DNA of 38,224 nucleotides from positions 1 to 38,224 of the forward strand of contig DAOWME010000003.1 of NCBI GenBank assembly GCA_030643245.1, given 5' to 3'. A program made the position numbers and the translations under genes. The notes under the pieces were generated by a model. That model saw only the letters and a program-made list of their open reading frames with translations. It had not been told where the DNA came from and did no database searches. Position 1 is the stretch's first letter, and every line of letters begins with the position of its first letter. Shown here one piece after another: positions 2,915 through 37,721 of the stretch. This stretch comes from Deltaproteobacteria bacterium (GTDB lineage: Bacteria > Desulfobacterota > UBA8473).

Positions 2915-4222
2915 ATGACAAAACGTAAGACTCCTATGTTAGATGAGCTGGAGAAAGGAAGCTGGCCTAGTTTCGTATCTGATATGAAACAGGAGGCCGA
3001 AGCCAGAGAAAAGACGGATGTCGATTTGCAGACCCCGAGGGAATGTGTCGATGATCTGCTCGGTCTTCTTGAACTTACATATGTGGACAAGGTGGTCCAC
3101 TGGAAACACGGTGGAATTGTCGGCGTATTCGGATACGGCGGCGGTGTTATCGGCAGATACTGCGACCAGCCCGAAGAATTTCCGGGTGTGAGAGACTTCC
3201 ATACAATGCGCGTCAATCAACCGTCGAGCAAGTTTTATTCCTCGGAATACTTGAGGCAAGTATGTGAATTATGGGAGAGACGTGGTAGCGGCCTGACCAA
3301 TATGCATGGTTCCACGGGTGATATCATCCTGCTTGGGACCACTACACCGCAGTTGGAAGAGGTCTTCTGGGAACTGACCCATAACCTTGATCAGGATCTC
3401 GGTGGGTCCGGTTCCAACCTGAGAACCCCATCCTGCTGTATAGGGAAGGCCAGATGCGAATTTGCCTGTTACGATACCCAGGCTATCTGCACTGAGTTTA
3501 CTATGGAATATCAGGATGAGTTGCATAGGCCCGCATTTCCTTATAAGTTCAAGTTTAAGTTCGATGGATGTCCTAACGGTTGTGTGGCAGCCATTGCCAG
3601 GGCCGACATGTCGATTATCGGCGCATGGCGAGACGATATACGAATAGACCAGGAAGCTGTCAATGCTTATGTCGGGGGTGAGATCAAACCCAACGGAGGA
3701 GCCCATTCCGGGCGTGACTGGGGGGCCTTCGATATTCAAAAAGAGGTGGTCGACCTTTGTCCCACCGAATGTATGTCATGGGATGGAAAGAAATTGGGGA
3801 TTTACAATAAAGAATGTAACCGTTGTATGCATTGTATAAATGTGATGCCCAGAGCCCTGAGGATAGGAGAGGATACAGGCGCCTCCATTCTCTTTGGAGC
3901 AAAGGCCCCTATCTTGGAGGGCGCTCAGATGTCCACATTGACTATCCCGTTCATGAAGATCGAGGAGCCGTATGAGGAACTAAAGGATATTGTCGAGAAG
4001 GTGTGGGATTATTGGTCTGAAGAGGGTAAGAACAGAGAACGCCTTGGTGAGTTGATACAGAGAGAGGGCTTTCAGAAGTTCCTCGAAGTCTGTGAACTCG
4101 ATGCAGACCCTCGAATGATCCAGGAGCCTCGATCTAACCCTTACATCTTTTGGAAGGAGGAGGATGTTCCGGGTGGATGGGAGAGGGATATCAATGAATT
4201 TAGGAAAAAACACCAGAAATAG
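2915..4222 (+). CDS. dsrA: Dissimilatory sulfite reductase alpha subunit
   Basis: 435 aa; DsrA motifs (HGSTGDIILLGTTTPQLEEVFWELTHNLDQDLGGSGSNLRTPSCCIGKARCEFACYDT) and ferredoxin-like insert (CNRCMHCINVMP). Confidence 0.98.
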   Translation: MTKRKTPMLDELEKGSWPSFVSDMKQEAEAREKTDVDLQTPRECVDDLLGLLELTYVDKVVHWKHGGIVGVFGYGGGVIGRYCDQPEEFPGVRDFHTMRVNQPSSKFYSSEYLRQVCELWERRGSGLTNMHGSTGDIILLGTTTPQLEEVFWELTHNLDQDLGGSGSNLRTPSCCIGKARCEFACYDTQAICTEFTMEYQDELHRPAFPYKFKFKFDGCPNGCVAAIARADMSIIGAWRDDIRIDQEAVNAYVGGEIKPNGGAHSGRDWGAFDIQKEVVDLCPTECMSWDGKKLGIYNKECNRCMHCINVMPRALRIGEDTGASILFGAKAPILEGAQMSTLTIPFMKIEEPYEELKDIVEKVWDYWSEEGKNRERLGELIQREGFQKFLEVCELDADPRMIQEPRSNPYIFWKEEDVPGGWERDINEFRKKHQK

Positions 4223-4234
4223 GAGGTTTTATCA

Positions 4235-5350
4235 ATGGTCTATGATCCAAGTGATCCATTGAAGGATAGGATAACTGATATAGGTCCGAAAAATTACAAG
4301 GAGTTTTTACCTAATGTAATCAAAGAGAATTACGGGAAGTGGCTTTACCATGAGATCCTTGAACCGGGCGTACTTATGCACGTCTCGGAAACGGGAGACA
4401 AGGTTTACACCGTTAGGGTCGGTGGATGCCGCCTCATGAGTGTTACACACATACGTGAGATATGTGAGATCGCAGACAAACACTGTGACGGATACATGAG
4501 GTTCACCACCCGCAATAATATCGAGTTTATGGTCGATGACGAAGCAAAGTTGAAACCCTTGATGGAAGACCTTGATGGCAGAGAGTTTTCGGCAGGGTCC
4601 AAGAAATTCCCGAGGGGCGGTACAGGTGCCGGTCTTACCAACATCGTGCATACCCAGGGCTGGATCCACTGCCATACACCGGCCATCGATGCTTCCGGCG
4701 TTGTAAAGTGCGTGATGGACGAACTGTTCGATGATTTCCAGGGCATGAGATTTCCGGCGCAGGTCAGAATATCCCTCGCCTGCTGTCTCAATATGTGCGG
4801 CGCAGTCCACTGCTCCGACATCGCTATCCTGGGAATCCATCGCAAGCCCCCGATGCTTGACCATGAGAATCTCGACAATATGTGTGAGATCCCGTTGGCA
4901 ATAGCAGCATGCCCAACCGGGGCTATCAAACCGGCTAAGGTTGACGGTAAGAAGAGCGTTGCGGTTAAAAATGAGAGGTGCATGTTCTGCGGCAATTGTT
5001 ATACCATGTGCCCTAGCATGCCGTTGGCTGATGAAGAGGGGAGTGGCGTCGCCCTGCTGGTGGGAGGCAAGATATCGAACAGGATAAGCGAGCCGAAGTT
5101 CTCAAAGGTGGTGGTTCCCTTTATCCCCAATGAGCCCCCGCGTTGGCCGTCAACCGTTGATGCGATCAAGAAGATCCTCTATGCATACGTAGATGACGCA
5201 AAGAAATACGAACGCCTCGGTGATTGGGCCGAGAGGATCGGCTGGGAGAGGTTTTTTGATAAGACCGGCCTGCCTTTCTCGGGACATCTCATCGACGATT
5301 ATCGCTTCGCATATACGACCTGGCGTCAGAGCACACAATTCAAATTCTAA
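4235..5350 (+). CDS. dsrB: Dissimilatory sulfite reductase beta subunit
   Basis: 371 aa; siroheme/Fe-S motif region ([23 protein letters not shown]) and [12 protein letters not shown]. Confidence 0.98.
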
Positions 5351-14784: not shown

Positions 14785-15245
14785 GAAGCTCTTCATCCTC
14801 TGCCGGTATTTGATGAGAACATGGAAACAGGGGAGCGAGTTAAATAATTTCAAAAACATCGATAATGGTTTTTTCCTCCCAAAGCACGATTTAATTTAAT
14901 CAGAACCGGATGTTTAAAGCTGCTTCTAAAGGATAAGAAACACAGGAGACCCCACTTGATGCCTTGAAAAAAAGAACGGATGTTACTGAAGACTTCTTGA
15001 AACAACAGGTGTGAAAGGGCGAGGACCTGAACAAAAATATGTTTCTGACAAAGATCATGACCAAAAAAATCAAGATGTTAAGGGAGATCTAATCTTCAAG
15101 TCTAAGGTCGGATAAAAGGTGGGGAAGTTTGGCACGGTACATTGAGAGGAGGTGATGGAGCGGGAACGAGCTAAAGAGATGTATATGTGTATATCTTAAA
15201 ACACGTTTTAGTAGGTAGTAAAATTTATTGAAGGAGGTAAGACAT

Positions 15246-15689
15246 ATGCCAAGTTATGTCATTATGGAGAAATGTGACGGCTGTAAAGGTCAGGACAAGA
15301 CCGCTTGCATGCATATATGCCCGAACGATCTCATGGTGTTGAACAAAGAGACGATGAAGGCTTACAACAGGGCACCTGAGATGTGTTGGGAATGCTACAA
15401 CTGCGTTAAGATCTGTGCGCAGGATGCCATGGACGTGAGGGGTTACGCTGATTTTGTACCTATGGGCGCATCCTGTGTGCCGATGAGGGGTTCAGAGGAT
15501 ATTATGTGGACGGTCAAATTCAGGGATGGGAGCCTCAAACGGTTCAAGTTCCCCATCAGGACAACACCCGAAGGTTCGGCTGTGCCCGATGGCGGATGGG
15601 AGACCGGAACGGATGACCTCAAGAGTCCGTTACTATTCACAGAGCCCGGATCACTGGGACTTCCTGAATTAACCACACTAAAAAAATAG
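15246..15689 (+). CDS. aprB: Adenylylsulfate reductase beta subunit
   Basis: MPSYVIMEKCDGCKGQDKTACMHICPNDLMVL..., CWECYNCVKICAQ. Confidence 0.97.
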   Translation: MPSYVIMEKCDGCKGQDKTACMHICPNDLMVLNKETMKAYNRAPEMCWECYNCVKICAQDAMDVRGYADFVPMGASCVPMRGSEDIMWTVKFRDGSLKRFKFPIRTTPEGSAVPDGGWETGTDDLKSPLLFTEPGSLGLPELTTLKK

Positions 15690-15708
15690 TACAGGAGGTA
15701 AATTAGAT

Positions 15709-17592
15709 ATGGCACAGTATGAAACTGTCGAGGTAACGACCGATCTCCTTATACTCGGTGGCGGGATGGCTGCTTGCGGAGCAGCGGTGGAGGCGGCGTA
15801 TTGGGCGAAGAAGAACGGTCTGAAGGTAACTATTGTGGATAAGGCCGCGATGGACAGAAGCGGAGCAGTTGCCATGGGTCTTTCAGCCCTCAATATGTAC
15901 GTTGGTATCAAAGACGGAGAGAATACCCCTGAGGATTATGTCCACTATGTGAGACAGGACCTTATGGGCATATCAAGGGAAGATCTGGTCTATGATATTG
16001 CAAGACATATAGACAGTACAGTCCATCTCCTTGAGAAATGGGGACTCCCCATCTGGAAGGATGAGAATGGAGCCTATGTTCATGAAGGTAGATGGCAGCT
16101 CATGATCAACGGCGAATCCTACAAGGTGATCGTTGCAGAGGCTGCAAAGAATGCTTTGACAACCATGGGCGATGATGCTGAGATCTATGAGAGGGTCTTC
16201 ATAGTTGACCCCCTGATGGATGGCGACAGGGTTGCAGGTGCGGTCGGATTTAGTATTAGGGATGAGAAGTTTTACGTGTTCAAGGCAAAGGCGGTTATGG
16301 CCGCCATGGGCGGCGCCGTACACGTCTTCAAGCCAAGGTCAACCGGTGAGGGACTGGGAAGGTCATGGTATCCTCCGTTTAACTCAGGTTCAAGCGCATA
16401 CTTTACATTGAAGGCCGGCGCTGAGATGACCTGTCAGGAAGTACGGTTTATCCCGGTCAGGTTCAAGGATGCTTACGGACCGGTGGGAGCATGGTTCCTA
16501 CTCTTCAAATCGAGGGCAACAAACGCCCTTGGTGGGGAGTACATGGTCGAGAGGAAAGAGGAGCTCAATAACTGGAAACCTTATGGTCTGGCAAAACCGA
16601 TTCCTGCTAACCTTCGAAACTACTTGGGAATGCTCGATCTCAATGAAGGCAAAGGCCCATTGTACATGAGAACCGACGAGGCCATGAAGGCTATCATCGA
16701 GTCGGTTCCTGAGGGAAAAGAAAGGAAGAAAAAGATAAAAGAGGTTGAGGCCGAGGCATGGGAAGACTTCCTCGACATGACCATCTCCCAGGCCATTCTG
16801 TGGGCCGGCAGCAACATCTATCCGGAGAAAAAAGCTTCGGAAATCGCTCCATGTGAGCCTTATTTCATAGGGTCCCATTCGGGCGCGTCAGGCGCATGGG
16901 TCAGTGGTCCTGAGGATCTTTCTCCGAAAGAGTACTTCTGGGGTTATAATAGGATGGCTACGGTCAAGGGTCTGTTCTGCGCAGGGGATGCCTCCGGGGC
17001 ATCGTCTCATAAGTTCTCCGATGGTTCTCACGTGGAAGGAAGGATGGCTGCCAAAGGCGCATTGGCCTTCATCATAGACAACAACACACAGCCCAATGTG
17101 GATATGGCACAGGTGGAAGAGATGAAGAAGACTATCCTGAAACCATTGGATATCTATGAAGAGCATAAGGCGTTCGCTGACGGAGAAGTAAACCCCAACT
17201 TCATCAAGCCTATGCAGTTCATGTTCAGGATGCAGAAGATCATGGACGAGTATGTGGGCGGTGTATCGAGCGCGTTCACGACCAATACGCCTTCTCTGGA
17301 GAGGGCTCTGGAATTACTGGAATTCCTGAAAGAGGATTCAGAGAAACTCGCAGCTGAGGACGTACACGAACTCATGAGATGCTGGGAGAACGTACAGAGA
17401 ATGTGGCAGGCTGAGGCACATACGAGAACGGTCCTCTTCCGCGAGGAGACAAGATGGCCCGGTTATTACTTCAGGGCGGATATGCCGAAGATGGATGAGG
17501 ACAACTGGAAGTGCTTCGTCAACTGCAAGGTTGATCCGAGTACGGGTGAATGGGAGATGACCAAGAAGGATGTAATTCCTTTGATTGATTGA
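15709..17592 (+). CDS. aprA: Adenylylsulfate reductase alpha subunit
   Basis: 627 aa FAD protein with AprA motifs (TTDLLILGGGMAACGAAVEAAYW; RSTGEGLGRSWYPPFNSGSSAY). Confidence 0.98.
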   Translation: MAQYETVEVTTDLLILGGGMAACGAAVEAAYWAKKNGLKVTIVDKAAMDRSGAVAMGLSALNMYVGIKDGENTPEDYVHYVRQDLMGISREDLVYDIARHIDSTVHLLEKWGLPIWKDENGAYVHEGRWQLMINGESYKVIVAEAAKNALTTMGDDAEIYERVFIVDPLMDGDRVAGAVGFSIRDEKFYVFKAKAVMAAMGGAVHVFKPRSTGEGLGRSWYPPFNSGSSAYFTLKAGAEMTCQEVRFIPVRFKDAYGPVGAWFLLFKSRATNALGGEYMVERKEELNNWKPYGLAKPIPANLRNYLGMLDLNEGKGPLYMRTDEAMKAIIESVPEGKERKKKIKEVEAEAWEDFLDMTISQAILWAGSNIYPEKKASEIAPCEPYFIGSHSGASGAWVSGPEDLSPKEYFWGYNRMATVKGLFCAGDASGASSHKFSDGSHVEGRMAAKGALAFIIDNNTQPNVDMAQVEEMKKTILKPLDIYEEHKAFADGEVNPNFIKPMQFMFRMQKIMDEYVGGVSSAFTTNTPSLERALELLEFLKEDSEKLAAEDVHELMRCWENVQRMWQAEAHTRTVLFREETRWPGYYFRADMPKMDEDNWKCFVNCKVDPSTGEWEMTKKDVIPLID

Positions 17593-23854: not shown

Positions 23855-23965
23855 AGGAGTATAAGAGGGAAAGCAAAGAATAAATAGAAAAGCAAGGTCT
23901 TGTATAAAACAAGTCCGTGAGAATAATAATTCTTAACAACGAAGTGTAGAAAAAGGAGGAGTGTG

Positions 23966-25147
23966 ATGATTAAGCCGTTCGGATCCGACAAACTAAACCC
24001 GTTGTATGTTTCTGATGATGCAAAACGCGAAGCGCTGATCAAGGAGGCTGAAGGATTACCTTCTGTAGTAATGTCTTCCGCTGCAGCCGGAAACGCCGTC
24101 ATGTTGGGTTCCGGTTACTTTAACCCCCTGACGGGATACATGAACCTCGCCGATTCCAAAAGCGTTGCAGAGAAGATGCAGACCACTTCCGGTTTGCTCT
24201 GGCCGGCGCCTATCGTGAATGTACTAAAAGATGTATCCGCTATCAAAGGCGCCAAACGCATTGCCCTTCGTGATCCCAATGTTGAAGGGAACCCGGTTTT
24301 GGCCATCCAGGACGTGGAAGCTATCGAAGAGGCGAGCGCAGATGATATGAAGATGATAACAGAGAAGGTTTTCCTTACCACGGATGAGAATCATCCCGGG
24401 GTTGCAGCCTTCAATTCAGTTGGCAATTTTTTCGTTTCCGGTCCTATCCAGGTATTGAGCTATTCTTATTTCAAGACTGACTTCCCCGAGACATTTAATA
24501 CCGCAGTAGAACTCCGGGACCACATTGAGAAGCATGGGTGGAAAGAGGTTTGTGCCTTCCAGACCCGTAACCCGATGCACAGGGCACATGAAGAGCTGGT
24601 CAAGATGGCCATGAAGGAGTATAATGCGGATGGCGCTATCATTCACATGCTGCTTGGGAAACTGAAACCGGGTGACATCCCTGCCGATGTTCGGGATGCC
24701 GCTATACGAAAGATGGCGGAACTCTACTTCGAGCCCAATTCACTGGAGATATCGGGCTACGGTTTTGACATGCTCTACGCAGGTCCCCGCGAGGCTGTGC
24801 TACACGCAATATTCCGGCAAAATATGGGCGCTACCGTGCTGATCGTTGGACGTGACCACGCAGGTGTGGGGGACTATTATGGCGGATTTGACGCACAGGC
24901 CATATTTGACGAGGTTCCTGAGGGGGCCCTCGATATAAAGATATTCAAGGGCGATCACACAGTGTGGTGCAAAAAGTGTAAAAATGTCGTGATGATGCGT
25001 GATTGTCCCCATGGCAAGGACGACTACATCATGCTTTCAGGAACAAAGGTTCGCGAAATGCTGGCCGCCGGTCAAGAGCTGCCTCCGGAATTCTCACATC
25101 CGGAAGTGGCACATATACTCATGGGCTATTATAAGAATAGCGACTAA
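23966..25147 (+). CDS. sat: Sulfate adenylyltransferase
   Basis: 393-394 aa; QTRNPMHRAHEEL and GRDHAGVGDYYGGFDAQ motifs. Confidence 0.98.
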   Translation: MIKPFGSDKLNPLYVSDDAKREALIKEAEGLPSVVMSSAAAGNAVMLGSGYFNPLTGYMNLADSKSVAEKMQTTSGLLWPAPIVNVLKDVSAIKGAKRIALRDPNVEGNPVLAIQDVEAIEEASADDMKMITEKVFLTTDENHPGVAAFNSVGNFFVSGPIQVLSYSYFKTDFPETFNTAVELRDHIEKHGWKEVCAFQTRNPMHRAHEELVKMAMKEYNADGAIIHMLLGKLKPGDIPADVRDAAIRKMAELYFEPNSLEISGYGFDMLYAGPREAVLHAIFRQNMGATVLIVGRDHAGVGDYYGGFDAQAIFDEVPEGALDIKIFKGDHTVWCKKCKNVVMMRDCPHGKDDYIMLSGTKVREMLAAGQELPPEFSHPEVAHILMGYYKNSD

Positions 25148-28406: not shown

Positions 28407-28991
28407 ATGTTTACCATTACCCTTTCCCAATACCTTATTCCACCGGTAATAGGCGGCATAATCGGCTGGTCAACAAACAAGCTGGCCATATGGATGCTCT
28501 TCAACCCGAAAAAGGAAAGAAGGGTTTTTGGCATTCGTATTCCGTTTACTCCCGGGTTGATACCCAGAGATCAAATGAGGATAGCGAGAAGCTTGGGAAG
28601 ACTCGTTGAAGAAAAGCTTATAGACTCGCAGGAGATACATGACAGGATTACAAGGGAAACTGTCAGCGGAAAGATTGAGGAGCTGATGGACAGAGCAGTG
28701 GAAAAGAATATGGGGAAACTCTACTTTCTTATCCCCGAGGCTGCCATGTGCCACGTAAAAAAGCTTGTGGCGCCAAAGATTTCTAGCTTGGTAAGGGATG
28801 AATTGCTGGGCTTCATAGATCTTATAAATTTCAGAGAGCTTGTCGAGGATAGAGTGACTAATTTTCCTTTGGCAGAGCTGGAAGAGGCGATTAGGGGCGT
28901 GGTCAAGAGGCATCTCACGCATATAACACTTCTTGGCGGTGTGTTGGGGGTTATGATTGGACTCGTACAGGTGGCGGTGAGTTTCATATGA
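28407..28991 (+). CDS. DUF445-like membrane-associated protein
   Basis: IPPVIGGIIGWSTNKLAIWMLFNPKKERRVFGIRIPFTPGLIPRDQMRIARSLG ... C-terminal hydrophobic helix. Confidence 0.88.
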   Translation: MFTITLSQYLIPPVIGGIIGWSTNKLAIWMLFNPKKERRVFGIRIPFTPGLIPRDQMRIARSLGRLVEEKLIDSQEIHDRITRETVSGKIEELMDRAVEKNMGKLYFLIPEAAMCHVKKLVAPKISSLVRDELLGFIDLINFRELVEDRVTNFPLAELEEAIRGVVKRHLTHITLLGGVLGVMIGLVQVAVSFI

Positions 28992-29036: not shown

Positions 29037-30890
29037 ATGATAACAGTTGGGGTACTGACGATTAGTGATAAGGGAGCACGGGGAGAGAGGGAAGATAAGA
29101 GTGGTTTAGGGATAAGAAAGTTGGTAAAGAAACTGCCGGCAAGGGTAGATGCCTATGAAGTGATCCCCGATGAGAGGAATATCATAGCCAACAGGCTAAT
29201 CGATTATGTAGATAACAGGAAACTGGACCTCATTGTTACCACCGGTGGTACCGGGGTAGCCCCCAGGGATGTGACCCCCGACGCTACGTTGAGTATAATA
29301 GAGAAGGAAGTACCGGGGATGGCTGAGGCTATGAGACTGGAGGGGCTTAAGAAGACGTCCCATGCCATGATATCGAGGGCTGTAGTAGGAATTCGGAAGA
29401 GTTCACTTATCGTCAACCTTCCGGGTAGTCCAAAAGCTGTATCAGAAAATCTTAACGCAATCCTGGCCTCACTACCCCATGCAATCGCCAAGATAAAGGG
29501 AGACAACACCGAATGTGGCCCACGACAAGGCATGGAGGGGAAACGCGTTATGCCTGAAGGAAAGTCAAAGAAGAACATTAGAGAGATCTTTGAAAGTGCT
29601 GTTGCTGCAGTGAGGCCTAAGAAGGTCGTTAGTAGAAACGTTCAGTTAATGGATAGCCTGTCAGGAGTTAAACTGTTAATAGGCGGCACGGAATATGACC
29701 TTTCAGAATATCATAGGATACACGTGGTAGGTGCCGGAAAGGCAGCGTCTTCCATGGCCCTGTCAATGGAGGGGATCCTGGGAGAGAGGATCAGTGGGGG
29801 AACGGTTACCGTTAAATACGGGCACCTGGAAGAGTTAGACATAGTACATATCAATGAAGCAGGTCACCCGATTCCTGATGAGGCAGGGATAAAAGGCACC
29901 AGGGATATCCTTGAATTGGTAAAGGGGCTCACCAGCCATGATCTGGTAGTATGCCTGATCTCCGGAGGGGGGTCAGCCTTGATGCCACTACCCTGTGAAG
30001 GGATAAGCCTTGGAGAAAAACAGGATACAACCAGACTGCTTCTGGAATGCGGGGCAACAATAAACGAAATAAACGCCATAAGAAAACATATATCTCAGAT
30101 AAAAGGTGGCAAGCTTGCCGGATATGTATATCCCGCCACCTTGGTTTCCCTGATACTCTCCGATGTTATTGGTGACAGGTTAGACGTCATCGCTTCAGGG
30201 CCAACAGTCCCGGATGAAAGCACCTTCGAAGACTGCCTTAGGATCATAGAAAGATACGGGATCGAGAAGGAGATACCCAAATCAGTCCTGACACATCTCA
30301 CAGATGGATCAAAAGGGATCGTAGAAGAGACTCCAAAGCCAGGTGATGAGATCTTCAGCAAAACCAAAAACTTCGTTATTGGAAGTAACCTTCTGGCCAT
30401 TAATGAAGCAAGAATTCAATCGGAACGGATGGGGTATAATACCCTTATCCTCTCCACTTCCATTGAAGGGGAAACCAAGGATGTGGCCAAGGTACACGCA
30501 GCGATAGCAAGAGAGGTCTTGAACTCCGGGAATCCGTTGAAAAGGCCGGCATGTATCATATCCGGTGGGGAAACTACCGTCACCATCCAGGGCAAAGGCT
30601 TAGGAGGGAGAAACCAGGAGTTTGTGTTAGCTGCCGCTATGGAGATCGACGGATTAGAGGGTGTAACCATTTTAAGCGGGGGGACGGATGGTACTGATGG
30701 CCCAACAGATGCGGCCGGGGCTATTGCCGATGCCCATACCATCGAAAGGGCAAAAAAAGCGAAGATGGATCCCTATTTATACCTTAGAAACAACGATTCC
30801 TATCACTTTTTTCAGAAATTGGACGATCTACTCCTCACAGGTCCCACCAATACAAATGTAATGGATCTCCGATTAATGATAGTGGAGTGA
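29037..30890 (+). CDS. Fusion: MogA/MoaB molybdopterin adenylyltransferase + glycerate 2-kinase (DUF4147/MOFRL)
   Basis: N-term TVGVLTISDKGARGEREDKSG...VTTGGTGVAPRDVTPDAT; C-term VVGAGKAASSMA...LISGGGSALMPLP...GTDGTDGPTDAAGA. Confidence 0.92.
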   Translation: MITVGVLTISDKGARGEREDKSGLGIRKLVKKLPARVDAYEVIPDERNIIANRLIDYVDNRKLDLIVTTGGTGVAPRDVTPDATLSIIEKEVPGMAEAMRLEGLKKTSHAMISRAVVGIRKSSLIVNLPGSPKAVSENLNAILASLPHAIAKIKGDNTECGPRQGMEGKRVMPEGKSKKNIREIFESAVAAVRPKKVVSRNVQLMDSLSGVKLLIGGTEYDLSEYHRIHVVGAGKAASSMALSMEGILGERISGGTVTVKYGHLEELDIVHINEAGHPIPDEAGIKGTRDILELVKGLTSHDLVVCLISGGGSALMPLPCEGISLGEKQDTTRLLLECGATINEINAIRKHISQIKGGKLAGYVYPATLVSLILSDVIGDRLDVIASGPTVPDESTFEDCLRIIERYGIEKEIPKSVLTHLTDGSKGIVEETPKPGDEIFSKTKNFVIGSNLLAINEARIQSERMGYNTLILSTSIEGETKDVAKVHAAIAREVLNSGNPLKRPACIISGGETTVTIQGKGLGGRNQEFVLAAAMEIDGLEGVTILSGGTDGTDGPTDAAGAIADAHTIERAKKAKMDPYLYLRNNDSYHFFQKLDDLLLTGPTNTNVMDLRLMIVE

Positions 30891-31031: not shown

Positions 31032-31292
31032 TCATGGCCCCGAGCTATGCGTCGATGACAAGTAATGACATGGCGAAGCGTAACGGTTGACGCACGGGTA
31101 CCGCTTTGAATCCGGCTTACCCTGTTCATCTGTATTGAACTCCCACACAGAAAGGGTAAAATAGTCATTTTCTTCCCATCCGTCTTGCCCTATAAGACCG
31201 GCTGTTGATGTCCCCACAAAAAAAAGCGCGGCCAGGCACAGGACAAGAGAAGCGGAATGTTTTTTTATAAGGTAGCCTCTTCTATTTCTCAT
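31032..31292 (-). CDS. Small exported protein downstream of CobN
   Basis: MRNRRGYLIKKHSASLVLCLAALFFVGTSTAG signal peptide; start overlaps cobN end. Confidence 0.6.
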   Translation of the reverse strand: MRNRRGYLIKKHSASLVLCLAALFFVGTSTAGLIGQDGWEENDYFTLSVWEFNTDEQGKPDSKRYPCVNRYASPCHYLSSTHSSGP

Positions 31293-34200
31293 CGCTTCTC
31301 TCTTCAAGGATACCTTCTACCTCAAGGTATGCATCCAATAACCTCTCTCTTTCTTCATCGTTTGGTTGCCAATAACCCCTCTTGTCTGTCTCCCAAAGCC
31401 TTTTAATGATCTGTGAGGTTGCAAACGGGTTGTTTTCCAGGAGGCGTTTCCGCATCTCCTCATCAAATATGTATCGTTTTGCGATGTCACTGAAGACCCA
31501 GCTTTCAACCTTACCGGTGGTTGCTGCAAGGCCAAGGATATACTCAACTCTGTCGGATATCTTCTGTGCACCATGAAACTTATGCTCCAGCATCCCGTCT
31601 ATCCATTTTGGGTTCAGTATCCTCGCCCTCATGGATTTCTCTATGGGCTTCTTTATATCTTCCACCTGTATAAGCTCTTTGGTGGTATCGGCGATCAACA
31701 TCCGGGGCTTTTCGCCCTTCACCGATTCTATGGATTTGGCCAACCCTCCGAAGAACTCATAGTAGTGATCGAGCTCGGTTATCTCTAATTCATGCGTATC
31801 CCTCACCTGGGTGATGAGATCGACCCTCGATAGGAGGGTCTCAAAGACCTCCTTTGCAGATTCGGCATTCACATTCTCCCCGTAACCGTACTGCATGCTG
31901 TCAAGATAGGATCGAGAAAGTTCACTCTCATCCTCCCAGCGGGAGGTTTCAATAAGGGTCGTCATGGAAGTGGCATATTCACCCCTGCCAGGCCCGAAGA
32001 TGCGCAAGTAAGAAAGGTCTTTATCCTCCTTGGGACTTAGTTTTGCGGCTATCTCTTGAGAGTGTTTCTTAACCATGTTAATCTCAGGCGGTTCCTGGAG
32101 GGACGAAACGAGTTTGAACGCCTCACTCAGGAAGTCGATCAGGTTGGGCAGGGTGTCGCGGAATATACCACAGATGGTCACGACCACATCTATCCTCGGT
32201 CTTTTTAGTATGTCCAGGGGGATGACCTCCAAACCTGTGAACCATGGGCCGCTCTTTCTTACTGCCTTAAGCCCGAGGTATTGCAGGATCTGACCTATGG
32301 TTTCGCCCCTGGTCTTCACGGTTTCGAAACCCCAAAGCACCACGCTAACTGTCTCAGGATATCTGCCTTCGGTCTTCATGTATTCGGCGATAGAGGCTTC
32401 AGCGATCTCTGCCCCGCGCCTGCATGCGGCGCTGCTTGGAATCAGCCGGGGATCGAACTGGTACATGTTACATCCCGTTGGAAATACCTCCGGTGTCCTT
32501 ATGGGGTCTCCGCCGATATTCGGCAGAGTATACCTGGAGGAAAGGGCGCTCAAAAAAGCCTCTATCTCCTTGCTGTTCTTTATATTCGTATAAAGATCAC
32601 CAATATAGTCAAATACTGTCTTAACCCTTTTTCTGAAACTCCTGGGGACTGTCAGCAGCAGTTGCTCATCCGCATGGCCTTCCACCTTCTTTCCAACCAG
32701 TTCTTTCACCTGGTCTTCTATCTCCGCCAGAATCTCGTCGTGGCATCCGCCTTCTTTAACTTCACCGGGGTTTTGAAGCAATTCCTCATAAGTGAACCCC
32801 CTTGCTTCAGCCACTATCCGGTGTAGAGATTCCACCTCTCTGTCGTATCTCAAGATGAAGGTGATCAACTCGATAAGCTCTTCTTTCGAGTAAGCCTCTC
32901 CCAGAATATGGAGTCCTCTTGGGATGATAGATCTCTTTACCTCAAAGAGTGTGCCCTGGATCTCCTCTATGGAAGTATCTTCCATGTTGAGGTCTTTTGC
33001 TTTTCCACGAATCTCTTCTGATACCCTGTCCGCCCTCACGGGATCCTGGACTCTCGCTTCGTAGTATTCATGGATGAGTTCTTCTAAGTATACGAGTTCT
33101 TCATAGAGGCCTGAAGTTGTAAATGAAGGGGTCTGGTGGTTTACAATGGTGGCGTAGCTCCTTCTTTTTGCGATCGTTGCTTCGGAAGAGTTGGTGACCC
33201 AGTAGACATATATATGGGGCATATCCCCTATCAGGATATCGGGCAGGCAAGACGACGATAGACCAACCTCTTTTCCCCTAGTAAATTCAAGGGTTCCATG
33301 GGTACCCACATGAACAAGGGCATCGGCCTGGAACTCCCTGTCGATCCAGCGATAGAACGCAAGATACTGATGATGGGGGGGGAGATCGCGGTCATGGTAG
33401 GATCTTCCTTCGTCTTCATGTACCCCCCTGGAAGGTTGAATGCCGATGAAGATATTCCCCAGGATGATACCCGGGATCAAAATACCGTGCCTATCGGTCA
33501 TTATCTCCCCGGGCGGGTCACCCCATTTCTCAACCATCTCATCCTGTATACCTTCAGGAAGATCATTAAACCATTTCACATACTTCTTGACCGGTACCCT
33601 TAACCCACGTCCTGCTTCCTCCGAACACCACTGGGGGGAGTTGACGATCCCTTTCTCCAAAAGGAGATCGCTCATATCTCCCTCGGGGATTTCCACAAGA
33701 TACCCCTCGCTTTTCAATGCAGAAAGGATCTTCCTCAAACTTGAAAAGACATCGAGATAGCTGGCGTTGCCGAGGTTGTGTTCTCCAGGTGGGTAGTCGT
33801 AGATGATCAAGGCTATCCTCTTCTCCCTGTTTTCCTTCTCTTGCAAAGAAAGCCTGTTCTTTAGGCGGTTGCAAAACCTCTCCAAGCGATTGTCTATGGA
33901 AGAGGGTGTCTTCACCTCACTTTGAATATCCTCGCTGAACCCGGCATTCATAAGTCCGCTCAAGACCATAGGCTCGATACAGCCATCAAGCTCCCTGAGG
34001 GCCACGGCTATGACCACCTCGATGGGGGAGAGGCCTATCTCTGATTCTTTCCATCTCTCTATCTCGCTTTGATACATGTGGACCGGTCCGAATACGGGAC
34101 AATTCAAGCCTCTCAACATCTCAAGGGTGGGCATGGGGTCTCCGCCGAGCGGCCCGCCATTGATTCTGAAGTACTGAAGGTTTATAACGGCATCTACGAA

Positions 34201-35061
34201 GGGTTTGCCATCTTTGAAGAAGAAAGAGTCTATTGCTTCCAGGTTTGTCATGACATCAGAAAAAACAGGTACAGTGGCGACCTCTGGCTCGAGTTTTTTT
34301 ATCAAGGCATTGACCACTGGAAGGCAATCATCGAAGTGCATCCCGCCATAGAAGAATATGCCCACCTTAGGTTTGCTGTCAAGCAAATCATGGATTTGCT
34401 CAAATTCATCGATCTTTGAAAAAAACCTGTCGTACCTGGGATGATAGATCCCCGCCTTTGGTGGGATCACTGGCGGATCAAACTTGATCCTTTTCTTTCC
34501 GCCATACTCCCTGGCTAAAAGAAGGAGGAGGTTCTTGAGGTTCTGTTTGCCTCCATACTGCCAGTAATCGATGGCAAAGGCCCAGTTTCGCGCGTGTCTT
34601 ATGGTCCCAAAAGGAAGGATCTTGCCTGTCTTCTTGATCAATTCCATAATCTTCAGACCCGTGGATATGTCTATCCTGTCCACGTCAAAACCTATATCAG
34701 GTTGTCTCTCGAATATCTTACGGGCGTTGAAACTCCCCATCTTCGTGAGAGAGAGGATTTCCGTGGTCCCCCCACAGAGTGTCAAAATGGTTTTATCATT
34801 CCGGGTCAGGGATTCCATAGCCATCTTTGCCCCGCGGGTTTGTCCCCTCATGTCGAGAAGGACGATATCCGCCGCGTTAAGGTCTTCTTTCAACCGGTCT
34901 TCATCGACAAGTCCCGTATCCAACTCGTGGAGGTAGTAGTTTCTTAAGGCCACGATATCCCCATGGTCAGCCCTTATCTCCTCCAAGGCCGAGGCCAGGG
35001 AGCCTGTAGTGCACATGGTCGTTATGAGTACGATTCTGGTCTCTCTCTCTTTATTATTCAT
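31282..35061 (-). CDS. cobN: CobN/BchH-family chelatase large subunit
   Basis: 1259 aa; CobN-type motifs (HVGTHGTLEFTRGKEVGLS, NIGGDPIRTPEVFPTGCNMYQFDPR). Confidence 0.93.
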   Translation of the reverse strand: MNNKERETRIVLITTMCTTGSLASALEEIRADHGDIVALRNYYLHELDTGLVDEDRLKEDLNAADIVLLDMRGQTRGAKMAMESLTRNDKTILTLCGGTTEILSLTKMGSFNARKIFERQPDIGFDVDRIDISTGLKIMELIKKTGKILPFGTIRHARNWAFAIDYWQYGGKQNLKNLLLLLAREYGGKKRIKFDPPVIPPKAGIYHPRYDRFFSKIDEFEQIHDLLDSKPKVGIFFYGGMHFDDCLPVVNALIKKLEPEVATVPVFSDVMTNLEAIDSFFFKDGKPFVDAVINLQYFRINGGPLGGDPMPTLEMLRGLNCPVFGPVHMYQSEIERWKESEIGLSPIEVVIAVALRELDGCIEPMVLSGLMNAGFSEDIQSEVKTPSSIDNRLERFCNRLKNRLSLQEKENREKRIALIIYDYPPGEHNLGNASYLDVFSSLRKILSALKSEGYLVEIPEGDMSDLLLEKGIVNSPQWCSEEAGRGLRVPVKKYVKWFNDLPEGIQDEMVEKWGDPPGEIMTDRHGILIPGIILGNIFIGIQPSRGVHEDEGRSYHDRDLPPHHQYLAFYRWIDREFQADALVHVGTHGTLEFTRGKEVGLSSSCLPDILIGDMPHIYVYWVTNSSEATIAKRRSYATIVNHQTPSFTTSGLYEELVYLEELIHEYYEARVQDPVRADRVSEEIRGKAKDLNMEDTSIEEIQGTLFEVKRSIIPRGLHILGEAYSKEELIELITFILRYDREVESLHRIVAEARGFTYEELLQNPGEVKEGGCHDEILAEIEDQVKELVGKKVEGHADEQLLLTVPRSFRKRVKTVFDYIGDLYTNIKNSKEIEAFLSALSSRYTLPNIGGDPIRTPEVFPTGCNMYQFDPRLIPSSAACRRGAEIAEASIAEYMKTEGRYPETVSVVLWGFETVKTRGETIGQILQYLGLKAVRKSGPWFTGLEVIPLDILKRPRIDVVVTICGIFRDTLPNLIDFLSEAFKLVSSLQEPPEINMVKKHSQEIAAKLSPKEDKDLSYLRIFGPGRGEYATSMTTLIETSRWEDESELSRSYLDSMQYGYGENVNAESAKEVFETLLSRVDLITQVRDTHELEITELDHYYEFFGGLAKSIESVKGEKPRMLIADTTKELIQVEDIKKPIEKSMRARILNPKWIDGMLEHKFHGAQKISDRVEYILGLAATTGKVESWVFSDIAKRYIFDEEMRKRLLENNPFATSQIIKRLWETDKRGYWQPNDEERERLLDAYLEVEGILEERSDEK

Positions 35062-35093
35062 CTTCTCTCTTCTCTCTTCTCAGAACTCGTCCT

Positions 35094-37406
35094 TTACATC
35101 TTAAGATTCAGGCTGAACACAAAGTTTCTCCCCGGTTGAATAAAAGAGTCATCCCATCCGTACATACAGGTCATCGGAAATGATCTGTATTTCTGATTCG
35201 TAAGGTTCTTCACTGCAAATGTCAGGCTGACATCTTGAAAGATCATAAATGACTGACACTTTAACCCCGTTCTGAAGTCATAGACCTCGAAGGCCGGGGT
35301 CTTTGATCTCTCTGTCCAGTCATCCGGGATTCTGTGCTGCCTGTCATAGATCCTTGAGCATAGTTCCGCCCAAAGTCTGCCGTCCAGAGGTCTTATGTCC
35401 TCGGTTTCATACCTGATGCCGAGAATTGTTTTGAGCGGCGGTATCCCTTCCAGAGGATCTTTTTGTATCTTGTCCTTGCCCCTGGCATAACTTATGGTGG
35501 AAAAAGCAGACCAGTTTGTCGAAACCTGGAAATCAAGGGTTGCTTCTATCCCCCGGATCTCTACCTCTCCTATGTTGTCAAAGGTGAGTACTGCCGTTTG
35601 ATCGGTCGGAACCATTAGTATGTAATCATCTATTTTATTAACGAAGCCTGTAATGCTTGCAGAGAAATCAGGATACAACATCTTGATGCCTGCCTCGTAA
35701 TTAATGCTCTCTTCTGAGTTTATCTCAGGGTTGCCCCTCAATTGGGCGCCTCCAGGCACGGCTCCAACGTAGAACCTCTCTTCCAGTGAGGGAGCCCTGA
35801 ACCCTTTTGAGAATGATCCCGTAAGGTTAATCCCGTCAGAAAGAGAGAACAGGAGGCCGATTCCGCCGGTTACGGAATCGTCTTCACTCTCTTCTTTGAT
35901 CAAATTATCCTTTGTGCGGTAGTGGTCATACCTCCCGCCGAGGGTTATCCATAAGCCATCAAATACCTCTATCTCATCTTGAACGTAAAACGCTGTGTTG
36001 TCGAAACTCCCGTCCACAAGGTCGCCTTGCGTATGTATCTCGGAGAACTGAGGAGGTAGATCCAGTCCCATGGATCCAGCAAACTGGATTACGTCTTCAA
36101 GTAGGGGTCGGGGAATGGTAAATCCCATGATTGAAATATCAACGTTCATCTCAGACGGGGCCTTGGCCTCGTCTCTGTAATATTCCATGCCGACCGTCAA
36201 CACTTGAAGGCGGATAAAATCCAACGTTGAGAGGCCTCTCGCCTGGGCGCTGTAGGTATCTGTTTCGAGATTGCCTTGAAGTACGACATTTATGTTTCCC
36301 GGCATAAGATGAGGAAAGATTGTGGTCGTATTGATATACTCCATCCTCTCCTTCTGAAAATGGGCGCTAAAATCTAATGAATCCAGCCAGAAAAAAGGAT
36401 CCCTGAACTCATAATTGAGGGTGTATGTTTCGCGATCAGCACGAGGTATATCAAAGATGCAATCAACGTCTGTTACAAGCGTCATGCCGAACATCTCCTC
36501 TTCGACATCTTTCATCTTGGTCAGGGGGGTCTCCATCTCCCCCTTAAAACTATTCACGGAAACCGCAATCGATTGCTGATCATTTATAAGATAACTGGTG
36601 TGAAGATCAATGCTGGTGTCTTTATAACTACTATGATCAAGTATTCCTTCTGGGGTTTTTACATCCCCGGACTCCTTTCTTGTTACGCCTACAAGCGAAT
36701 TGAATCCTTTTCCTCCAAACTCGAATTCTATTCTGCCGGATCTCAGGTCATTTACGCCTGCATATTTTGTGGAAAGGTTAGTGTCAAAATAGGCATGCTC
36801 GCCCTTTTGCGATTTCTTTGTGATTATGTTGATAACACCGCCCATGGCTCCGGAGCCGTAGAGAACAGTCGCTGGTCCGTGAAGCACCTCTATCCTCTCT
36901 ATCTGGCTGACATCGATCTCATTAAGATAGACTCCCCCTGTTAGAGAACTCACATGGGAATTCCACCGCTTTCCGTCAAGCAGCACAAGCACCCTGTTAG
37001 CGGAAAGTCCTCTGATTCTGGCTTTGGTGATTCCAGGTGTACCATCATGATGAATTTCAACACCGGCAACAGTCTTCAGTAGATCTCCAATATTCGCGGG
37101 GGATGTCCTCTCTATCTCTTCTCTGTCGATAACGGTGACAGACATGGGTGTATCGAATGTCGACTTTTCATATTTTGTGGCTGTTACAACTATATCATCA
37201 AGTTTGAGCGCCTTTGTCTTATTTGGCTCCTCTTTTGCTGCGTCCGGGGTCGAGGAACCTTCCATATGGGTACCATCTTTTGTGCCCGGCGCCTCAAGCA
37301 CTTCCGCGGCTGAGACCGAGAAGCTGAGTATAAGGAATACAAGTGTGGCCATCACGAAGTCTGTTATTGGTCTTCTTGTCAATTCAATCTCCTCTAAATA
37401 GGTCAT
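35094..37406 (-). CDS. TonB-dependent outer membrane receptor (BtuB/CirA-like)
   Basis: Plug domain (DDIVVTATKYEKSTFDTPMSVTVIDREEIER...GGVINIITKK), terminal beta-strand NFVFSLNLKM. The start may be 37352; the ORF-track start at 37442 lies in repeat A. Confidence 0.92.
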   Translation of the reverse strand: MTYLEEIELTRRPITDFVMATLVFLILSFSVSAAEVLEAPGTKDGTHMEGSSTPDAAKEEPNKTKALKLDDIVVTATKYEKSTFDTPMSVTVIDREEIERTSPANIGDLLKTVAGVEIHHDGTPGITKARIRGLSANRVLVLLDGKRWNSHVSSLTGGVYLNEIDVSQIERIEVLHGPATVLYGSGAMGGVINIITKKSQKGEHAYFDTNLSTKYAGVNDLRSGRIEFEFGGKGFNSLVGVTRKESGDVKTPEGILDHSSYKDTSIDLHTSYLINDQQSIAVSVNSFKGEMETPLTKMKDVEEEMFGMTLVTDVDCIFDIPRADRETYTLNYEFRDPFFWLDSLDFSAHFQKERMEYINTTTIFPHLMPGNINVVLQGNLETDTYSAQARGLSTLDFIRLQVLTVGMEYYRDEAKAPSEMNVDISIMGFTIPRPLLEDVIQFAGSMGLDLPPQFSEIHTQGDLVDGSFDNTAFYVQDEIEVFDGLWITLGGRYDHYRTKDNLIKEESEDDSVTGGIGLLFSLSDGINLTGSFSKGFRAPSLEERFYVGAVPGGAQLRGNPEINSEESINYEAGIKMLYPDFSASITGFVNKIDDYILMVPTDQTAVLTFDNIGEVEIRGIEATLDFQVSTNWSAFSTISYARGKDKIQKDPLEGIPPLKTILGIRYETEDIRPLDGRLWAELCSRIYDRQHRIPDDWTERSKTPAFEVYDFRTGLKCQSFMIFQDVSLTFAVKNLTNQKYRSFPMTCMYGWDDSFIQPGRNFVFSLNLKM

Positions 37407-37411
37407 TCCGT

Positions 37412-37721
37412 CTAAGGGGCGAGGCCGAAATAACTTCCTCATTTGTACATCTCATCTTCAGGCCATCTTTGAACGATCTTCAAACACAAAATCCTCGAAA
37501 TAGGTAAGACTATTCGGCATCCTTCATACATCGGTTTACACTTTTTAAATTATGGCTGCTGAATCTATGCCGAGACCGTTTTTTTATTCGAAAGAGTAAA
37601 CTACTTTATAGCTTTTATGAAGGATGCCGACTATTCCTGTGGTTTTGTATTTTCAGATCGAACAAATCTGACCTAAATCTGAGCGCCAACTTGAGGAAGT
37701 TATTTCGTCCCCGTCCCTAAT
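37412..37721 (+). repeat. Palindromic repeat family A, copy 3, interrupted by a MITE-like insert
   Basis: CTAAGGGGCGAGGCCGAAATAACTTCC ... GGAAGTTATTTCGTCCCCGTCCCTAA with internal insert 37516-37636. Confidence 0.9.
37516..37628. mobile_element. 113-bp MITE-like element nested in repeat A copy 3
   Basis: TIR GGCATCCTTCATA / TATGAAGGATGCC; flanking GACTATTC (37508-37515 and 37629-37636); sister copies have a single GACTATTC. Confidence 0.88.

Follow-up and report, generated by a model that had tools for sequence, protein, structure and literature searches.

Domains of the MogA type are known in fusion with other enzymes. In gephyrin and Cnx1 such a domain, the G domain, is joined to a MoeA-type E domain, so that two consecutive steps of one pathway are combined; in gephyrin the G domain is N-terminal and its partner C-terminal, and there a MogA-type domain tolerates a fusion at its C-terminus. 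Among bacteria, the bifunctional MoaC/MoaB protein (PRK03604) joins a MoaB/MogA domain to a partner that is likewise an enzyme of cofactor synthesis. Class II glycerate 2-kinases (GckA/TtuD/MOFRL), exemplified by Thermotoga maritima TM1585 (Protein Data Bank (PDB) entry 2b8n), combine complete DUF4147 and MOFRL domains. Here we describe an open reading frame (ORF) that joins a MogA-type domain to such a kinase. It lies in a stretch of 38,224 nucleotides (the window) from a Deltaproteobacteria bacterium (Desulfobacterota; UBA8473; GenBank assembly GCA_030643245.1, contig DAOWME010000003.1, positions 1 to 38,224 of the forward strand). The arrangement resembles that of gephyrin in placing the MogA-type domain at the N-terminus, and differs from gephyrin, Cnx1 and the MoaC/MoaB protein in that the partner, a glycerate kinase, stands outside the cofactor pathway.

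The fused frame and its two halves

The ORF begins with ATG, ends with TGA at 30888-30890 and is open throughout without an internal stop. Its parts, and the gene preceding it, are as follows.

29037..30890, + strand: fused ORF, MogA-type domain plus class II glycerate 2-kinase, 617 amino acids (aa)
29037..29519, + strand: MogA/MoaB-type (MoCF_biosynth) domain, residues 1-161, from PF00994 and PDB alignments
29520..29549, + strand: linker codons 162-171 (PRQGMEGKRV), with no counterpart in the family's unfused MogA and kinase proteins
29534..29540, + strand: internal Shine-Dalgarno (SD)-like GGAGGGG, 9 nucleotides before the ATG at 29550; GGGAGGAG in the second species of the genus (G001, below)
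29550..30890, + strand: class II glycerate 2-kinase, residues 172-617 (446 aa), with an internal ATG start, DUF4147 and MOFRL
28407..28991, + strand: DUF445 gene (PF04286), 45 bp upstream of the fusion

All three Pfam matches of the ORF are full length and far above their gathering cut-offs: MoCF_biosynth (PF00994) at residues 5-145 (1.6e-28; 99.6 bits against a cut-off of 26.6), DUF4147 at residues 181-421 (1.2e-88; 297 against 23 bits) and MOFRL at residues 505-610 (9.6e-43; 145.2 against 28.3 bits). The earlier note had read the frame as an in-frame fusion of an intact MogA/MoaB domain with a complete DUF4147/MOFRL kinase, and the open 617-aa frame, the full-length Pfam matches and the second species described below bear this out; the motifs that it quoted are present in the ORF.

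Among solved structures the MogA half is closest to the MoaB protein 2is8 (3.3e-46), with the gephyrin G domain (1jlj, 3e-39) and the Cnx1 G domain also among its nearest relatives; the alignments extend through residue 153-156, and a full-length gephyrin chain (9s3f) is among the structure matches of the window protein. The domain carries TTGGTG...PRDVTPDAT, that is, the GGTG / PRDVTP motif (TTGGTGVAPRDVTPDAT), and acidic positions D45 and D78, which correspond to the two conserved active-site aspartates of the family, as known from work on Escherichia coli MogA and Cnx1G. It exceeds the TIGR00177 cut-off (117.7 against 85.35) but stays below the NCBIfam equivalog cut-offs, narrowly for MogA (PRK09417, 146.2 against 158) and widely for MoaB (TIGR02667, 89 against 222.4); the score of 150 against PRK03604 (cut-off 285) covers the MoaB half only. 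Because the PRK09417 and TIGR02667 cut-offs are missed, we call the domain MogA-type rather than a proven MogA. The label of molybdopterin adenylyltransferase that it had been given therefore holds as a family-level assignment, on membership of MoCF_biosynth and on the motifs, but is less firm at the level of MogA itself.

The kinase half aligns nearly end to end with the solved glycerate kinases 2b8n (3.5e-109) and 1x3l (2e-99). Its K235 and R525, both conserved, align in 2b8n with the catalytic K47 and R325 of the T. maritima enzyme, and NCBIfam archaeal-type equivalog cut-offs are not reached. The segment DGTDGPTDAAG fits the class II glycerate kinase consensus D-X(0,2)-G-X(0,1)-D-[GP]-X(4)-[APS]-[ACDGST] (PMC2063504). 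From the described class II enzymes the window protein thus differs by its extra N-terminal domain. Judging from these domains and positions, both halves most likely retain the usual activities of their families, namely MogA-type adenylylation of molybdopterin for the molybdenum/tungsten (Mo/W) cofactor, and ATP-dependent conversion of glycerate to 2-phosphoglycerate.

Distribution of the join and gene order in related genomes

The two genes are joined in frame in the same way in another species of this genus, a Deltaproteobacteria metagenome-assembled genome (G001, contig C42, neighborhood L031, JAUXHQ010000152.1). Its fused protein shows 96% aa identity to that of the window over residues 1-557, at which point the G001 contig stops. 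Across these 557 common codons the two sequences differ by 64 nucleotide substitutions that change the amino acid in 23 codons, with no indels and no stops. The ratio of nonsynonymous to synonymous substitution rates (dN/dS) is ~0.16 in the MogA part and ~0.18 in the kinase part; in a 12-codon linker stretch it is ~0.58, a value derived from only three substitutions.

The architecture is not widespread. Our survey of genomes for the fusion covered this phylum, and among the matches listed only the window genome (G000) and G001, both of one genus, gave a full-length match over both halves, i.e. 2 of the 395 genomes sampled; full-length matches to residues 1-617 would rank first in this search. 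In a 59-genome sample listing both halves, a single further genome (G003) has the two genes close together. Of 496 matching plasmid records, not one covered 80% of the query at a single place. Nor did a further fused match appear among the 19 loci of a species-level genome scan; that scan relies on exact peptide patterns and extends only to close relatives. In the open literature we found no paper describing a MogA-glycerate kinase fusion. The fused architecture is very rare, and among the sampled genomes it is seen only in this genus, whose members are uncultured sulfate reducers.

In another family of the phylum (G274, contig C304; L058:2519-4861) a 780-aa frame joins a radical SAM protein to a class II glycerate kinase. 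As in the window, an unrelated upstream gene runs in frame into the kinase, and a strong SD-like AAAGGAGG precedes an internal ATG at codons 329/332; the partner and the family differ. This is a second, independent glycerate kinase fusion, and it supports the view that run-ons into this kinase can occur without a pathway reason.

The unfused pair is found in a sister genus of the same family (G003, L050). There a 163-aa mogA ends in a TAA stop and a 446-aa kinase gene follows 324 bp downstream in the same direction, so that order, kinase length and kinase clade are shared with the window (76% and 74% identity), whereas two separate proteins are encoded. The gap holds a ~255-bp inverted-repeat element resembling a miniature inverted-repeat transposable element (L050:7046-7300, contig C22 of G003), of which G003 has dozens of copies, mostly at 77-94% identity, and the window genome dozens of related copies at ~72-75%. 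Since ~255 of the 324 bp belong to this element, the original gap between mogA and the kinase was ~70 bp. A fusion in G003 itself, hinted at by a 723-aa open frame, was rejected: the sequence has the TAA after mogA, and the kinase frame there is also given as 454 aa. In a third genus (G002, G004, G005, G007) the kinase occupies a locus apart from mogA, in 3 of the 4 genomes between a carboxyltransferase gene and a pyruvate kinase gene (the latter named from its N-terminal sequence); wherever mogA sits on an assembled contig, it has its own stop shortly past ECGSS and the upstream order lspA-lgt-DUF445-mogA is kept. The order lgt-DUF445-mogA is conserved in the family as a whole (neighborhoods L031, L035, L050, L051, L053 and L055). 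Separately, in G001 a short inverted repeat, ATTCCCGTGAAGGCGGGAAT ... CCCGTTTTCACGGGAATGAC, lies between DUF445 and the fusion (L031:3620-3820) and is missing from the window at that place.

In a kinase tree the window protein, G001 and G003 group with full support and the kinases of the third genus fall in a different clade, whereas in a small MogA tree the whole family stays together, with moderate support. Because the MogA tree follows the family while the kinase tree splits, and because the position of mogA is conserved, mogA looks vertically inherited, and the kinase seems to have reached its position behind mogA, by arrival or relocation, in the lineage of the fused and sister genera, before the stop was lost in the former. 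That the repeat split an already fused gene in the sister genus is a less simple alternative, in that the mogA stop of G003 precedes the element and the MogA of the third genus ends naturally at about the same place.

Internal start, metabolic context and origin of the fusion

In the sister genus the two genes lie side by side without being fused, and in other genomes they are separated; for this reason the join looks like the loss of a stop codon between chance operon neighbors, recent, local and lineage-specific, rather than a designed two-step enzyme. An ancestor of the genus would have had mogA and the class II glycerate 2-kinase gene, both complete, as neighbors in the lgt-DUF445-mogA operon. 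The two would then have become joined in frame when the mogA stop codon and a short spacer were lost, with linker codons 162-171 representing the former intergenic spacer. The full-length product would be a 617-aa bifunctional protein, both halves of which would have their ordinary activity.

The kinase appears to have carried its translation signals into the fusion. The internal ATG at 29550 aligns with the start Met of the free kinase in G003, and the free enzyme and the fused kinase part both measure 446 aa. The duplex energy of the preceding SD-like sequence with a standard anti-SD is -9.8 kcal/mol in the window, a strength matched by only 3 of 277 other in-frame internal ATGs in its ORFs, and -10.9 kcal/mol in G001; the purine run persists while the linker amino acids vary (GMEGKRV in the window, GREEKRV in G001). 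This suggests that the ribosome-binding site of the kinase is still used. Because that site and the start codon survive inside the fused ORF, a free 446-aa kinase is probably made as well, from the internal start. Free MogA, conversely, would not be made: no stop within mogA halts translation ahead of the kinase, and every MogA molecule would have the kinase attached.

In the window genome PF00994 finds three domains, one in the fusion and two in frames of 448 and 417 aa that are MoeA-like in size; no other MogA-type gene and no other DUF4147 kinase was found, which makes the fusion, on present data, the sole source of both functions. The rest of the cofactor pathway is represented by MoaC and the MoeA-like genes. 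The presence of MoaC, five PF00384 matches and two AFOR-family genes indicates that the organism needs the Mo/W cofactor. When sugars are broken down by a non-phosphorylative route, glycerate, the substrate of the kinase, is formed by an aldehyde oxidoreductase that depends on ferredoxin or molybdate (PMC2063504). An indirect metabolic link can thus be drawn from the cofactor through the aldehyde oxidoreductase and glycerate to the kinase, which does not amount to evidence of channelling. The earlier note had called the architecture unexpected, knowing of no functional link between its halves. That wording was slightly too strong given this route to glycerate and the two AFOR-family genes. The functional oddity that it implied is also weakened by the adjacent, unfused genes of the sister genus and by the kinase's retention of its own start and ribosome-binding site. 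As a separate observation on cofactor-dependent enzymes, molybdopterin oxidoreductase genes (G000:C102:836-2113 and orthologues) are interrupted by a single in-frame TGA in most of the family's genomes and probably encode a selenocysteine formate dehydrogenase.

We put at roughly 0.78 the probability that this is a stop-codon-loss fusion with two ordinary activities and a probable extra free kinase, and probably with no channelling or regulatory role. Several points weigh against it. Three other internal ATGs in the window reach the same SD strength, and the internal SD doubles in part as coding sequence. The genus offers two species, with the G001 contig ending at residue 557, so that long-term upkeep by selection is not established. 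The ancestral state, whether adjacency, fusion or fission, is judged from three genera. Moreover, the window genome is ~85% complete and could lack a second copy of either gene. An error of assembly or sequencing masking a stop codon or a frameshift is highly improbable. Both sequences are draft assemblies and the G001 contig has a low coverage of 7.0 and ends inside the kinase, but the frame, the linker length and the linker pattern agree between two separate assemblies, from different species, that differ at 64 positions. With an identical join in a second species, the join is not a frameshift of a single assembly; an artefact would need the same error twice at one place, and we reject it.

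It is unlikely, if less so, that the open frame is irrelevant, the kinase being made mainly from the internal start while the MogA extension is tolerated baggage and one half is possibly decaying. The strong internal SD in both species, the relaxed linker and the radical SAM gene of G274, which runs into a glycerate kinase likewise with AAAGGAGG ahead of an internal ATG, would agree with such a state, but translation of MogA reaches the kinase without any stop, and purifying selection acts to a similar degree on the two halves (dN/dS ~0.16-0.18). Quite unlikely, too, is a functional fusion in which Mo/W cofactor supply is coupled to glycerate use and one polypeptide sets both capacities. A Mo/W aldehyde oxidoreductase would turn glyceraldehyde into glycerate, which the kinase would consume; the window genome has two AFOR-family genes, and the fusion persists in two species. 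However, in the 59-genome sample the only genome outside the fused genus with both genes adjacent comes from the same family, and the kinase of the third genus sits beside pyruvate kinase. MogA serves all Mo/W enzymes, including those of the five PF00384 matches, and the AFOR enzymes may act on other aldehydes. A bolder form of this proposal, a selected bifunctional enzyme tying the cofactor supply of glycerate-making aldehyde oxidoreductases to a kinase that feeds lower glycolysis, with the internal product raising the kinase:MogA ratio above one, is very unlikely. The stop-codon-loss reading, in which the two activities are probably not functionally coupled, is the one that we prefer.

Neighboring genes and significance

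Elsewhere in the window lie genes for dissimilatory sulfate reduction (2915-5350, 15228-17592 and 23963-25147), comprising a dsrAB-like NIR_SIR pair, aprBA-like genes and ATP sulfurylase, accompanied by Nitrate_red_gam/NrfD membrane proteins and Hdr-like/FlpD proteins; this is the energy cluster of a sulfate reducer beside the fusion. Downstream of the fusion, on the opposite strand (31282-37442, - strand), a gene for a CobN/Mg-chelatase large subunit adjoins one for a TonB-dependent receptor.

The fusion is a new combination of two known enzymes and reveals no new enzyme or pathway. Among MogA fusions it represents a further domain combination, the first that we found with a partner outside cofactor synthesis. 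The three genera show stages in which the genes are apart, adjacent, and fused with the internal ribosome-binding site retained. The case also bears on 'Rosetta stone' reasoning, by which fused genes are taken to be functionally linked, and which can mislead where operon neighbors run together.
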